DNA from: Arthrobacter sp. C2
GTDB lineage: Bacteria; Actinomycetota; Actinomycetes; Actinomycetales; Micrococcaceae
Reading direction: 5' to 3'
Length of the DNA: 64,000 nucleotides
NCBI GenBank assembly: GCA_024207135.1
Contig: CP042428.1
Location: forward strand, 1,178,001-1,242,000
Part shown: one piece after another, positions 10,479 to 50,803 of the stretch
How the letters are laid out: every line of letters begins with the position of its first letter
Position numbering within the stretch: the first letter of the stretch is position 1
Made by a program: the position numbers and the translations under genes
The notes under the pieces: generated by a model
Seen by the model: only the letters and a program-made list of their open reading frames with translations
What the model was told of the DNA's origin: nothing
The model's database searches: none

Positions 10479-11519
<1,041 letters not shown>

Positions 11520-45599: not shown

Positions 45600-45647
45600 C
45601 CCGCTGACGTCGCCCAAATCATGGGAGCCCGCTGATAGGCTCCGCTC

Positions 45648-47117
45648 ATGGACGAACAGCTGGCATCCTTCCTTCGCGATTTTTCCAAGCTCACGACCCT
45701 GGCCTCCATGGCCTCCGACGTCACCGGCGGCACCCCGCTGCTGCCGGCTGTCGCGGCGCACCTCGGCACGGAGCCGGGGCGACTGCCCGTGGTGGTCGAA
45801 TCCTTTCCCGCACATCGGCTGGCGGACGCCTCGGGAATCCTGAACGATCTGGTTGAAGCCGACCCCGGCGCACGGATCCACGGACTGACCGGCCAGCAGC
45901 GCCACCACATGGACCTTTCGGACCTGGTCTCCAGCAACGGCATGCATGCCGGGTGGCTCGGCGAGCCGGACTACGAGACAGTTTCGGTCGGCCCGGACGA
46001 GGAACGCCGAATCGTCTCCTTCGGACTCTTCCTTTTCACCCGCGCCGGAACCCCCCTGGCGGTGCTGATGCGGCAAGCCAATCCCCAGTACGGCCGCGAA
46101 CTCGCCACCGTGGAAGTCCTCGGCGCCAGCCCGGATGCGGTGGATGAGTTCCTCAAGCACTTCAAGACGTCCCTTCGCGAAAACAGCATCTTCCGCGGCC
46201 ACGTCATTTCCTTCACCGCCAACGACTATTCCTCTTCCGCCGCGGGGATCACCTTCCACCGCCGGGCCAACGTGGCGGCCGGGGACGTGGTGCTGCCGCC
46301 GGGGACCCTCGAGCGGATCGAGGCACAGGTCCTGGGCGTCGGCGAGCACCGCGAGAAGCTCCTGGCACACGGGGCTCACCTGAAACGCGGAGTACTGCTC
46401 TACGGTCCTCCGGGCACCGGCAAGACGCACACGGTGCGCTACCTGGCCTCGGCGGCGGCACGGCACACCGTCATCCTGCTCTCGGGCAACACCCTTGCCT
46501 TCGTCAGCGAGGCCGCGCGAATGGCACGTGCCCTGCAGCCGGCCATCGTGGTGCTCGAGGACTGCGACCTCGTTGCCGAGGACAGGAGCTTCGGCCATGG
46601 GCCCCAGCCACTGCTCTTCGAGGTGCTCGATGCCATGGACGGGCTGGATACCGATGCGGATGTGGCGTTCCTGCTCACCACCAACCGGGTTGAGCTGCTC
46701 GAGGAGGCCCTGGTGCAGCGTCCCGGACGCGTCGACCTTGCCGTGTCGGTGCCGAGGCCCGATAGCGCGGCCCGGCGCGCGCTGCTGGAACTCTACGGAT
46801 CCAGGCTCAACCCCTCGGCACGCACCATCAAGGACGTCGCCGAGCAGATCGAGGGGACCACCGCCTCATTTGCCAAGGAACTGACCCGCCGCGCCATCCT
46901 GCTTGCTGCAATTGCCGGCGAGGAGCCTTCAGATGCGCATCTCTCGGCGGCCGCCACCGAGCTCATGTCGGATGCCGCGTCGTTGACCCGCAGCCTGCTG
47001 GGAGGGACCGGGGAGAACGGATCGGAGCCGGATCCCGAATCGAGCCACGGATACTTTGGAGCCGGGCCCGGGATCGCTCCGGGAGGCCACGGACCCGCAT
47101 CCATGGGCTGGTCCTGA
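45648..47117 (+). CDS. AAA ATPase with a unique N-terminal domain
   Basis: The product is 489 residues. The first ~230 residues are unrecognised, mixed alpha/beta. The AAA core follows: Walker A GPPGTGKT, Walker B with IVVLEDCDLV, sensor 1 LLTTNR and arginine-finger region EEALVQRPGRVDLAV, then a lid with SFAKELTRRAILLA. It belongs to the group of single-AAA proteins like BCS1/spastin-type remodelers; the client is unknown. The C-terminal ~35 residues are Gly/Pro-rich. A TAGGCT box ends 6 nt before the ATG (leaderless). It lies just after tRNA-Lys copy 2. Confidence 0.87.
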   Translation: MDEQLASFLRDFSKLTTLASMASDVTGGTPLLPAVAAHLGTEPGRLPVVVESFPAHRLADASGILNDLVEADPGARIHGLTGQQRHHMDLSDLVSSNGMHAGWLGEPDYETVSVGPDEERRIVSFGLFLFTRAGTPLAVLMRQANPQYGRELATVEVLGASPDAVDEFLKHFKTSLRENSIFRGHVISFTANDYSSSAAGITFHRRANVAAGDVVLPPGTLERIEAQVLGVGEHREKLLAHGAHLKRGVLLYGPPGTGKTHTVRYLASAAARHTVILLSGNTLAFVSEAARMARALQPAIVVLEDCDLVAEDRSFGHGPQPLLFEVLDAMDGLDTDADVAFLLTTNRVELLEEALVQRPGRVDLAVSVPRPDSAARRALLELYGSRLNPSARTIKDVAEQIEGTTASFAKELTRRAILLAAIAGEEPSDAHLSAAATELMSDAASLTRSLLGGTGENGSEPDPESSHGYFGAGPGIAPGGHGPASMGWS

Positions 47118-47461
47118 TTCCCTGAAGCCCCTTCCGCGGCGGCACCATCATCCGCTGACCGAGTCCGTCACCAGCCGTCGTTGCGAATGGCGGCACGCGT
47201 GCGCGCGGAGCGCGAGCCCACCCGGTTGGTCGAGCCGGTGCGATGGATGCGGGACAGCTGGTCTTCAGGCGTCCCGGCGGCACCCGATGCCGCAAACGCC
47301 ACGCGCTTGGCGACGAGTGCCTCGGGCAGGGCGAAGCCCGGTGACGCTGCCTGGCGGTTTTACTTCGACATGGAAAGAGCCCTACCGTTAGTGATTGAAT
47401 GTTTTCAATCACTATCGGTAGGGCTCACACTCCCAAATGCCAAGCCGTGCTGTCGGACCCC
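47118..47461. other. Convergent intergenic region with a strong hairpin
   Basis: Apart from the hairpin at 47378-47425, the ~250 bp next to the ATPase contain GC-rich frames on both strands, none recognised. Confidence 0.35.
47378..47425. terminator. Long hairpin terminator
   Basis: A 20-bp stem with one mismatch (arms 47378-47397 and 47406-47425) around an 8-nt loop terminates the aldolase gene on the minus strand (GGGCTCTTT follows) and may also stop the ATPase transcript. Confidence 0.8.
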
Positions 47462-48244
47462 TCAGGCGTCCAACTCCGCCAGGGCCCCCATGGAACCACG
47501 GGCCAGCCACGCGACATCCGAATGCAGGGCAATGAACTCGGCACCCTGCTCGCGATACCAACGCGCATCTTCGACGCTGACGGCGAAGGCACCCACGGCC
47601 TTGCTTTCAGCGCGTGCCGCGGCAATGATCCTGGCGATCGCCTCGCGCACCGCCGGGTGGGTCGGCTGCCCGAGCAGGCCCATGCGGGCCGAGAGGTCCG
47701 CGGTGCCGATGAACAGGCAATCAACCCCGTCGACGGCTGCAATCGCCTCGACGTTCCCCAGCGCCTCGGCCGACTCAATCTGCACGATGGTGCACGCCTG
47801 GGCGTTGGAGCCGTTGACGTATTCGGGGTCAAGCCCGAAGGTCCCGCCGCGCACCAGCCCGGCAACCGCGCGGATGCCTCCGTTTCCACCGTCCGGGAAG
47901 CGCATGGAGCGCACCGCGAGTTCGGCGTGCTCGGCGGTGTTGACGTTGGGAACCACGATGCTCTGGCAGCCAATGTCCATGGCGCGCTTGACTAGCATCG
48001 CGCCGAGCTCGGCAATGCGGATCAGCGCCTCAGCCCTGGCACCGGCGTCGCGTGCGGCACCCAGGGCTCGCAGCTGCTCGGTGGCGCTTGCCGGGTTGCT
48101 GGGGGCATGCTCGAGGTCGATGACCAGCCAATCAAAACCGCAGTGAGCCATGACCTCGGCCACGGCCGGGGAACCCAGGGTGAGCCACGCGCCGGTGCTG
48201 GGGGCTCGGGCGAGAAGGGACTGCTTGATGATGTTCGTGCGCAT
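47462..48244 (-). CDS. HpcH/HpaI family aldolase
   Basis: The product is 260 residues, a class II pyruvate-dependent aldolase. GAWLTLGSPAVAEVMAHCGFDWLVIDLEHAPSN is the N-terminal signature, and TIVQIESAEALGNVEAIAAVDGVDCLFIGTADLSA holds the metal-binding Glu and Asp. Such enzymes split 4-hydroxy-2-oxo acids to pyruvate plus an aldehyde. CCAAGGAG lies before ATG 48244. No catabolic partner genes are adjacent. Confidence 0.9.
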   Translation of the reverse strand: MRTNIIKQSLLARAPSTGAWLTLGSPAVAEVMAHCGFDWLVIDLEHAPSNPASATEQLRALGAARDAGARAEALIRIAELGAMLVKRAMDIGCQSIVVPNVNTAEHAELAVRSMRFPDGGNGGIRAVAGLVRGGTFGLDPEYVNGSNAQACTIVQIESAEALGNVEAIAAVDGVDCLFIGTADLSARMGLLGQPTHPAVREAIARIIAAARAESKAVGAFAVSVEDARWYREQGAEFIALHSDVAWLARGSMGALAELDA

Positions 48245-48399
48245 AGAGAGGACTCCTTGGGCATTTGTTTGACGACTGAAAGGCTTTGTCGGCGTCGTCC
48301 GCCAATCACGCAAGAAATCCCAAGCTAGGGAACATTTTTGAGTTTGCTCCCGATTGTTACTAGGTCCAGTCCGCCTCGACTGCCTAACACTGGGCCGCC

Positions 48400-49698
48400 C
48401 TAGTTTAGCTGGACGAAGGCAGATGTCTGTGGATCGTATCTGAGACGTTCCAAAATATCCGACGCGTTCACGCCCAACTCCGTTGCAACCCAAACTCGAA
48501 CGGTCAGAAGGCTTTCCCTCCAACGATTTAGCAATTCGAGTTCCGTTGGTAGTTCTCGATTCGCATGCTTTATACCGTTGTACGCACTAACCGTTCCATT
48601 GATCCAGTCGAGGCCATCGAAGGGGATCGCTTCACTCACATCTTCATGAATGCGTTCAAACCTGCGGCGCAAACTCGCCTTACCTGCGGCTGCCTCACTG
48701 AGTCCGTCTCGTAGGAGGAGCAGGAATCCAAGAGCTTCAAGCCCGGGCCCAACTTCAGCCATATGTGTAACCGCTCCAACTCCCTTGAGAAATCGATCGG
48801 AAATAATAGGATCCAGTGCGCGTCCAAATTCTTCGCGCAGTTGGAGCCATTTCTCGAGTCCATTTTGCCCAATCTCATCGAACTGGATCAAGTGCGGTCG
48901 ATACCCCGACGGCTTCGTGGCCTCACTATCGTTGGCTTCGGCGGGAATTACTGTCCGCCACTGCTCTCCATGCGTTTTGCCATCCAAAGTCCGAATTGGG
49001 TCATCCAAACGCAAAACGCTAACGACTTCACATGTCTCTTCCACCCATCTTGACAGCATCAAGAGATCACGAAGCCCAAGATGCATACCCAAAGAGTCGT
49101 GCCACGTTGTCGGCTTTTCCATACGGCTTTCGCAGTAGACGATATCTCGAACGGTAATGCTTTCGTCGTCCTGAGCCCGTTCAGTCTTCCAACTCGGGTT
49201 CAAAGTAAGTTCAGCACCAATCCGCACCGGCTCCGCGGCTTTTGCTTTGAGGGTGAATACTCCGGCTTTCCTGTCGAAATCTTCACTGAGACTGCTAACG
49301 CCGAGCCATTGCCGCAGGCCTGACACTTCTGACCGAATCCCATGCACAACCAAGAAATCAATATCGTCGTCAACCCCGATAATGGCGTATTTTGCCCAAA
49401 CCCGGCCAGATCCAGAATCTAAGTTGTGGTGGTAGCCCCGCGGCCAACAGTCAACGAGCATGACCTCGCCATATGAATCAGAAAATAGTAGCCTCTTGGG
49501 GACTTTCCGCTCGTAAACTTTTGAATGAGAATCCCGTACAAACCACTTTGCATATGGGTCATCGAGGCTCGGCCAGGGAACGACGATGCTGATGCCGCGC
49601 TCATCGCGTTCTAAGACAACATTGACTGGATGAGTGTTCTTATCAAAGTCGATCAGGCTGCCCATCCGACGGGTACCGATACTGAGTTCATTGGCCAT
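48400..49698 (-). CDS. ApeA-like HEPN protein, candidate antiphage factor
   Basis: The product is 432 residues. The N-terminal ~300 residues resemble the ApeA N-terminal beta domain: GSLIDFDKNTHPVNVVLERDERG, then PKRLLFSDSYGEVMLVDCW and KYAIIGVDDDIDFLVVHGIRSEVSGLRQWLGV. The C-terminal ~100 residues are a helical HEPN-like domain ending in NGTVSAYNGIKHANRELP, where N-GIKH may replace the RNxxxxH ribonuclease motif. ApeA is an abortive-infection RNase activated by phage. Here the gene is alone, lower in G+C than its neighbours, and has an exact TATAAT box 6 nt before the ATG. The identity is a pattern-based inference. Confidence 0.62.
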   Translation of the reverse strand: MANELSIGTRRMGSLIDFDKNTHPVNVVLERDERGISIVVPWPSLDDPYAKWFVRDSHSKVYERKVPKRLLFSDSYGEVMLVDCWPRGYHHNLDSGSGRVWAKYAIIGVDDDIDFLVVHGIRSEVSGLRQWLGVSSLSEDFDRKAGVFTLKAKAAEPVRIGAELTLNPSWKTERAQDDESITVRDIVYCESRMEKPTTWHDSLGMHLGLRDLLMLSRWVEETCEVVSVLRLDDPIRTLDGKTHGEQWRTVIPAEANDSEATKPSGYRPHLIQFDEIGQNGLEKWLQLREEFGRALDPIISDRFLKGVGAVTHMAEVGPGLEALGFLLLLRDGLSEAAAGKASLRRRFERIHEDVSEAIPFDGLDWINGTVSAYNGIKHANRELPTELELLNRWRESLLTVRVWVATELGVNASDILERLRYDPQTSAFVQLN

Positions 49699-49704
49699 GC
49701 TGTG

Positions 49705-49710
49705 ATTATA
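49705..49710 (-). promoter_or_regulatory. -10 box of the ApeA-like gene
   Basis: A consensus TATAAT on the minus strand ends 6 nt before the start codon, implying leaderless expression. Confidence 0.65.
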
Positions 49711-50091
49711 GAAGTTGCAATGTCCCCCGCTTTGACTTCCACTCTCAGCTGACCTGACACGTTACAGTGCCACCAGAATGAGAACATCGTTTTGTCAATG
49801 CATCCCTTCGAACCAACAGGAATGAGTAGTGGCTCCCCTCCTTTTGGCCCCTGTTGCATCGAGGCCTGATGGAAAGACCGGTGAAATTCTCAACGCCTGA
49901 AATTGAAACACACAACATCCGAACATTTCATGTTTCCCGTTCGTAAAAACATTCACTTGCAACAAGACAACGCAATCGGTGTGTACGTTCGATAGGCTCG
50001 TAGGCAGACCTCCATCCACCCCGTCGGTTTCCGTCGGGCATGCCAATGCCCCGAGGACTCCGGCCCCCATGCCTAGGGAGCACCCACACCG
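49711..50091. other. Divergent intergenic region, 381 bp
   Basis: It lies between the ApeA-like gene and bcp. It is A+T-rich, without recognised coding sequence. The bcp promoter should be in its last 100 bp. Confidence 0.35.
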
Positions 50092-50589
50092 ATGAGTGAT
50101 AACACCACCGCCGAAGCCGTCCGCCTGTCCGCCGGCGACGCCGCCCCGGACTTCACCCTGATCGATGCCCGCGGCCAGGAACTGACCCTGTCCTCGCTGC
50201 GCGGGAAGAAGACCATCGTGTACTTCTACCCGGCCGCCTCCACCCCGGGCTGCACCAAGCAGGCCTGCGACTTCCGTGATTCCCTCGAATCCCTGGCCTC
50301 CGCCGGCTACCAGGTCGTGGGTATCTCCCCCGATGCCCCGGCCAAGCTGGCCAAGTTCACCGAGAAGGAAGAGCTGACCTTCCCGCTGCTGGCCGACGAG
50401 GACCACGCCGTGGCCGCGGCCTACGGCGCCTGGGGCGAGAAGAAGAACTACGGCCGCACCTACGAGGGCCTGATCCGCTCCACGATCGTGGTTGACGAGA
50501 ACGGAATCGTTGAGGTGGCTCAGTACAACGTGCGCGCCACCGGGCACGTGGCGAAATTGCGTCGTGATTTGGGAATCGACCCCAAATAA
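50092..50589 (+). CDS. bcp: Thioredoxin-dependent peroxiredoxin (Bcp type)
   Basis: The product is 165 residues. GDAAPDFTLIDARGQELTLSSLRGKKTIVYFYPAASTPGCTKQACDFRD has the peroxidatic Cys in the TPGCTK motif, and a second Cys five residues on (QACDF) matches the atypical 2-Cys pair of Bcp. It reduces peroxides and organic hydroperoxides with thioredoxin. A short spacer leads to tRNA-Leu. Confidence 0.95.
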   Translation: MSDNTTAEAVRLSAGDAAPDFTLIDARGQELTLSSLRGKKTIVYFYPAASTPGCTKQACDFRDSLESLASAGYQVVGISPDAPAKLAKFTEKEELTFPLLADEDHAVAAAYGAWGEKKNYGRTYEGLIRSTIVVDENGIVEVAQYNVRATGHVAKLRRDLGIDPK

Positions 50590-50679: not shown

Positions 50680-50761
<82 letters not shown>

Positions 50762-50803
50762 CTCCTGAGCCGCAGACCTCCCCTCGGGGACCAGCGGCAT
50801 CGC

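Follow-up and report, generated by a model that had tools for sequence, protein, structure and literature searches.

HEPN superfamily proteins are metal-independent RNases that act as dimers, and the R-x4-6-H motif is the usual criterion for calling such a protein active. ApeA, a HEPN protein, is reportedly activated by deoxydinucleotides, according to the title of a 2026 preprint. ApeA is listed among defence systems in PMC7699616, and the R-x4-6-H motif is listed as conserved for ApeA in PMC3710099. The same HEPN review records that some families lost the motif, and that a non-catalytic action has been proposed for certain ones. Its table lists one such family, c2405, as keeping the His but having no Arg. 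Another departure is the HEPN protein of the type IX retron, retron-Kva2, which according to PMC13405049 has no canonical motif and uses the sequence-distant residues H64 and R122; mutation of either abolished defence.

We analyzed an ApeA-like gene in a 64,000-nucleotide stretch of the Arthrobacter sp. C2 genome (contig CP042428.1), hereafter the window. Its product resembles ApeA (the Cas13-ApeA of PADLOC) in its two-domain layout, with both Pfam domains over their cut-offs, in keeping the family Glu and His, in its sporadic occurrence and in having no recurring partner gene. It differs from ApeA in belonging to a group, called here the K-H clade, that has Tyr or Phe in place of the catalytic Arg and a Lys directly before the His, that occupies its own branch with 100/98 support, and that was seen here in Actinobacteria only; the Cas13-ApeA models also miss the window protein. 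The R-x4-6-H motif is absent from the window protein, since the Arg is replaced by Tyr373, and His378 is kept. Because the motif Arg is absent and the PADLOC ApeA models miss K-H proteins, we filed the K-H type, on these sequence criteria, as a separate clade beside canonical ApeA. The clade also resembles c2405, as far as the description in PMC3710099 allows a comparison, in having the His without the Arg; c2405 differs in being fused to an AbiTii domain rather than to ApeA_NTD1. Our literature searches, with most subscription papers and bioRxiv outside their scope, found no publication on the K-H clade.

The ApeA-like gene and its domains

The gene and its parts are as follows.

48400..49698, minus strand: ApeA-like gene of the K-H type (432 residues plus stop, ATG start)
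49045..49626, minus strand: ApeA_NTD1 N-terminal domain, residues 25-218 (Pfam; mostly beta in the model)
48442..48882, minus strand: HEPN-like helical domain, residues 273-419 in the model (Pfam, models, structural rows)
48565..48582, minus strand: putative active-site motif Y373-N-G-I-K377-H378, which replaces R-N-x3-H (profile and row alignment)
49705..49710, minus strand: TATAAT box, six bases upstream of the start codon (probably a leaderless promoter, judged from the sequence)

The original prediction described the 432-residue product as ApeA-like, with a beta-rich N-terminal domain followed by a HEPN-like helical end. This layout was seen both in Pfam and in an AlphaFold2 model. ApeA_NTD1 (PF18862) matched the window protein far above chance (E 3.6e-15; 56.6 bits, the cut-off being 25.5), and the match of HEPN_Apea (PF18739) to residues 339-412 was marginal, at 24.6 bits against a cut-off of 24.4, or 0.2 bits above it. 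Among 27 aligned relatives, ApeA_NTD1 was found at E 1e-3 in 27 and HEPN_Apea in 21; when six relatives were scanned singly for HEPN_Apea, three scored over the cut-off, two slightly under, and one had no match. The sole NCBIfam match of the window protein was far under its cut-off. On the basis of Pfam, the tree and the model, the window protein is a real, ApeA-like ORF.

In PADLOC, the window protein had no Cas13-ApeA match and only a weak match to PDC-S58 (E 0.0079), and the Cas13-ApeA models matched none of five other K-H proteins, compared with three of four R-type controls, the exception being L150. One K-H row, L102, matched the candidate family PDC-S58 (E 1.7e-6). Because the R-type L150 was also missed and L102 was matched, the failure of PADLOC is not confined to K-H proteins, nor is it complete.

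The gene had been described as lower in G+C than its flanks, and it is: its G+C is 51.9% vs 65.9% for the window, and its GC3 is 52.8% vs 76.7-93.5% in six other window genes. In the relatives, too, the gene is mostly lower in G+C than its own flanks (22 of 26). The TATAAT box at 49705-49710 and a leaderless start had also been proposed. The box is in place and no Shine-Dalgarno-like stretch lies ahead of the ATG, so that its position likely fits a leaderless start, whereas a sigma-70 consensus scan found no promoter on the minus strand at this site. By eye, relatives L084 and L092 carry a TAnnnT hexamer 6-7 bases ahead of the ATG, and at least six other relatives have a GGAGG-like site instead.

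The gene lies in a site that varies among congeners

The surroundings of the gene were compared with those in other genomes of the genus.

47465..48241, minus strand: HpaI-type aldolase, left neighbour (family name read from the sequence by eye)
48260..49987, no strand: segment of about 1.7 kb to which nothing in congener G006 corresponds and which G003 and G010 lack as well
50092..50589, plus strand: peroxiredoxin (Bcp-like), right neighbour (family name read from the sequence by eye)
50680..50762, plus strand: tRNA-Leu(tag), beyond the right neighbour

The ApeA-like protein had no match in any of 14 congeners. Its right neighbour, the peroxiredoxin gene, was present in 15 of 15 genus genomes searched (96% identity between G006 and the window), and the left-neighbour aldolase had a 95% identical copy in G006 only; in the other congeners the best copies were at most 44% identical and located elsewhere. 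In G006, 5.3 kb of other genes lie between the aldolase and the peroxiredoxin, and the alignment stops at 48259 and restarts at 49988. In G003 and G010 the window aldolase is missing too: the alignment stops at 47424 and 47413, respectively, and restarts at 50072 and 50074, the intervening stretch being about 170-180 bases. Thus, in the three best-aligned congeners the segment is replaced or missing, and the site is nearly empty in two. No second ORF was credited in 48260-49987 from the ORF list, so the segment holds a single gene, in agreement with the prediction of a solitary gene. No integrase was seen in the segment (by eye, from the ORF list), Rfam found only two tRNAs beside the gene, no nucleotidyltransferase antitoxin was recognised beside it by eye, and no reverse transcriptase was recognised by eye among the window ORFs.

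The low GC3, the absence from congeners and the variable site together mean that the ApeA-like gene is foreign; it is not vertically conserved at this site. As the domains also match, neither of the two findings that the original prediction named as refuting it was obtained. These same three observations agree with the proposal of a recent acquisition, but no close donor was found, the best relative being 58% identical (Agreia).

Several minor features of this region were noted. The gene content of window 45600-50090, from a tRNA-Lys to the peroxiredoxin and tRNA-Leu, varies across the genus (compared with L061-L074), with an aldolase, a regulator, an aminotransferase, a peptidase and an MFS gene gained or lost (names by eye), and G002 has an apparent MFS gene remnant in the stretch between tRNA-Lys and peroxiredoxin. 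At window 47377-47426, an inverted repeat of 23 bp (96%, loop of 4 bases) is probably a terminator; G003 and G010 have a similar, shorter inverted repeat at the corresponding end (by eye). In the G003 locus (L063, about 11290-11466), an AAA-ATPase gene adjoining the site has an apparent frame change near its 3' end. In G006, the slot of the ApeA-like gene beside the peroxiredoxin is filled by an ORF, P0002 (L061 2467-3036), that contains the letters R-N-D-L-A-H, a canonical HEPN motif by letters. P0002 had no Pfam match over cut-off and no PHROGs or PADLOC match, and a search of 198 genomes of the order turned up no relative; it is unproven as a HEPN gene and may be something else entirely.

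Relatives are sporadic and some lie beside mobility genes

A search of the order matched 17 of 396 genomes, a count that takes in the window genome itself and two weak partial matches. A pattern scan of contigs of named genomes gave 26 loci, all from Actinobacteria according to their titles. Two Arthrobacter-type plasmids also matched, one of them conjugative with TraG and TraA genes near. Neither the phages, searched by tblastn, nor the viral contigs yielded any relative. When plasmids were searched with a deep K-H query, there was one weak match, a Gordonia protein of the R type. In our searches the K-H clade was thus seen only in Actinobacteria; coverage outside them was thin, consisting of one pattern scan of genome contigs plus tblastn of plasmids and phages.

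We clustered the neighbours at 29 loci, considering only clusters common to at least two loci, and found no recurring partner gene, including any defence partner. The widest clusters, named by eye, were those of ABC ATPases, present at 9 loci, and of response regulators, present at 5, with no fixed position. With the window set aside, 8 of 28 loci (L085, L087, L089, L090, L092, L095, L104 and L110) have relaxase, T4SS or integrase genes no farther than about 8 kb away, as judged from cluster names read by eye with the aid of the L110 annotation. A recombinase-family gene is common to L098, L107 and L111.

A housekeeping role, or a role in plasmid-related RNA control, would agree with the missing defence partner among the clusters of the 29 loci and with the metabolic genes that flank the window site. 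We regard such a use of the ApeA-like fold as improbable, given that the gene is as sporadic in the order as described above, that 8 of 28 loci have mobile settings, and that ApeA is counted among defence systems in PMC7699616. The explanation we favour, with somewhat better than even confidence, is that the gene encodes a mobile or horizontally acquired, solitary abortive-infection effector of ApeA architecture, in which the His is kept and its basic partner has moved to K377.

The altered motif is shared by a clade

The original prediction had noted an altered HEPN motif and suggested a divergent or inactive form. When the profiles of the two types were aligned, with 13 relatives on the R-type side (probability 97.3%, E 1.8e-11), H378 coincided with the canonical His and Y373 with the Arg, and thus the window protein has Y373-N-G-I-K377-H378 where R-N-x3-H is expected. 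R-N-x3-H was present in all four controls, from Photobacterium, E. coli, Enterococcus and Gordonia; Y-N-x2-K-H was present in both Arthrobacter-type plasmid proteins, and [YF]-x3-K-H in 18 of 18 rows of the genus and order searches, from whose motif counts the short partial matches L019 and L020 were excluded. The set from the pattern scan was partly found via Y-N-G-x-K-H and so was left unused for motif frequency.

To see whether the altered motif reflects decay, we chose ApeA_NTD1 (PF18862) matches regardless of their HEPN end. In 394 genomes of the class, 29 matched at 31 places, of which 30 were read, the window included. The 30 ORFs comprised 16 with R-N-x3-H, one with R-D-x3-H, 12 with [YF]-x3-K-H and one without the HEPN part. 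The last (L137) was omitted from the aligned rows, as was L117, which is below the cut-off and glutamate racemase-like by eye. The 47 rows aligned together, which lack L015 (one of those 18) and contain L008, L012 and L016 under other locus numbers, fell into 22 with R at position -5 relative to the His and no K at -1, and 25 with Y or F at -5 (Tyr 23, Phe 2) and K at -1, with no intermediate. In a tree computed without the motif columns, a single branch with 100/98 support sets the K-H rows apart from the others; the tree is unrooted, 12 of its rows are long-branched and it carries a warning of one long-branch join among the R rows. The prediction of a divergent form thus holds for the clade as a whole.

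These counts bear on the idea that the window protein is a canonical ApeA with a motif that has decayed only in this strain. Its motif does differ from R-N-x3-H, yet the same change occurs in all 25 aligned clade members and 12 of the 30 ORFs chosen by ApeA_NTD1 are of the K-H type, which refutes strain-only decay and leaves it next to no probability. By the alignment, the motif change is clade-wide. Since the swap falls on one branch, the loss of Arg and the gain of Lys may have been coupled as one event, which would make the pairing a single observation and not a repeated one.

We next considered which residues the clade keeps. All 25 K-H rows have P67, W284, K377 and H378. The acidic residue of the family, E321, is also kept, its column having 23 E and 2 D in these rows and E in all 22 R-type rows. 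Position -4, Asn in 21 and Asp in one of the 22 R-type rows, is Asn in just 15 of the 25 K-H rows. Omega was 0.09-0.17 in four pairs of near relatives within the K-H clade, indicating purifying selection; these values describe relatives only, as the window gene has no near enough relative. In the sequences compared, the invariant residues and omega resemble a working active site, unlike a decaying one. Because the whole branch strictly keeps a different pair of active-site residues, the K-H protein is probably a variant that still works, not a broken copy. The suggestion of an inactive form is not supported, given the invariance of K377 and H378 in 25 of 25 rows, with Y or F at 373, and the omega values.

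It could still be that the K-H HEPN domain is catalytically dead and acts by binding RNA or a partner protein, blocking translation or phage functions. The catalytic Arg is gone in 25 of 25 aligned members, and motif-less HEPN families, some with a proposed non-catalytic action, are on record in PMC3710099. One would not expect a dead site to retain precisely the His and the adjacent Lys in every row while the Asn at -4 is kept in just 15 of 25, and we consider this explanation unlikely.

A further possibility is that the protein is active but relies on Arg293, in the first HEPN helix, as its basic partner in place of Lys377. The R293 column has 22 R, 1 K and 2 Q in the 25 K-H rows, and in the 22 R-type rows the commonest letters are P, S, Y, T and E, which makes R293 near-specific to the K-H clade. 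Retron-Kva2, with its distant H64 and R122 (PMC13405049), offers a precedent. Against this assignment, which we think quite unlikely, Gln stands at 293 in two rows and K377 has no exception. Judged from these columns, the replacement basic residue is most likely Lys377, with Arg293 the second candidate. Arg401 (R-x-W, last helix) had been suggested as the moved Arg by its invariance in nearer relatives (13 of 13, and 26 of 26 rows with a letter there); it was dropped because, with five deep K-H rows added, it was not among the columns kept by at least 21 of 25 (L119 has no Arg401, by eye), and because, from its place in the helix, it should be far from H378.

A proposed model for the K-H protein

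We propose, by analogy with ApeA and HEPN RNases, that the N-terminal, beta-rich domain would act as the sensor of infection. On sensing it, this domain would set free a dimer of the C-terminal HEPN RNase, and the dimer would then cut RNA and stop the infected cell. The catalytic His, H378, would be kept, the Arg five residues upstream being Tyr or Phe in the K-H clade, and the invariant K377, directly before the His and one helical turn along on the same face, would take the role of the Arg. The RNase activity, the use of Lys as the replacement, the trigger and the defence role are what we infer for the K-H protein by this analogy, the defence role following from family membership.

That the basic group can lie elsewhere is shown by the retron-Kva2 HEPN, which needs both H64 and R122 for defence (PMC13405049). 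In the same account, the retron protein resembles the K-H clade in having a non-canonical motif and yet a conserved His and a basic residue; it differs in that its His and Arg are 58 residues apart and in that its effector is in a complex with a reverse transcriptase. For the history of the clade, we tentatively suggest, at somewhat less than even confidence, an old clade-wide relocation inside ApeA, in which the Arg at -5 became Tyr or Phe and the Lys at -1 took over (or the reverse, the tree being unrooted), giving an active but so far unrecognised actinobacterial family of phage-defence RNases that the PADLOC ApeA models miss.

If the K-H clade works via Y/F-x3-K-H, calls of inactivity made from the motif would be unsafe, ApeA models such as those of PADLOC would miss actinobacterial defence genes, and the R-type and K-H clades would amount to a natural experiment in what the active site of an HEPN RNase requires. 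With the type IX retrons as a second case, it would show that the HEPN active site can shift its basic group.

Structure models

AlphaFold2 modelling gave a mean pLDDT of 92.3 over the full length of the protein; for residues 266-432 the value was 94.9. A sequence search of solved structures gave none worth using. With the C-terminal domain, the best 11 VIA rows were all HEPN or AbiV (MNT-HEPN toxins, other HEPN domains such as sacsin, AF0298 and 4nqf, and AbiV) at Z 9.0-6.3, with the next row at 5.7, values to be read with the warning from VIA that a Z under about 13 may reflect a mere common arrangement in helical bundles. Foldseek alone gave no significant PDB match for this domain; 4nqf came second, at E 0.84. 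Taken together, the VIA rows, Pfam and the profile match to R-type HEPN_Apea indicate that the domain is, as modelled, a four-helix HEPN fold. The best match was to an MNT-HEPN toxin (7ae2, 7ae8; for 7ae2, Z 9.0 and rmsd 3.5 over 118 residues). The toxin differs in sharing 8-10% identity and in working with a nucleotidyltransferase antitoxin. Helix 362-377 of the model ends at K377, and from this Y373 and K377 would be one turn apart on the same face.

Searches with the whole model were dominated by the beta domain and returned Hcp/tail-tube, PilZ and split-barrel flavin folds at Z 5-7; because these values are within the tool's stated noise, we make no claim about the N-terminal fold. Among the Hcp and flavin barrels, residues 6-110 (window 49369-49683) showed a weak likeness, also within noise at Z 5.7-6.3, to PilZ c-di-GMP-binding barrels, and this likeness in the model is suggestive of a dinucleotide sensor.
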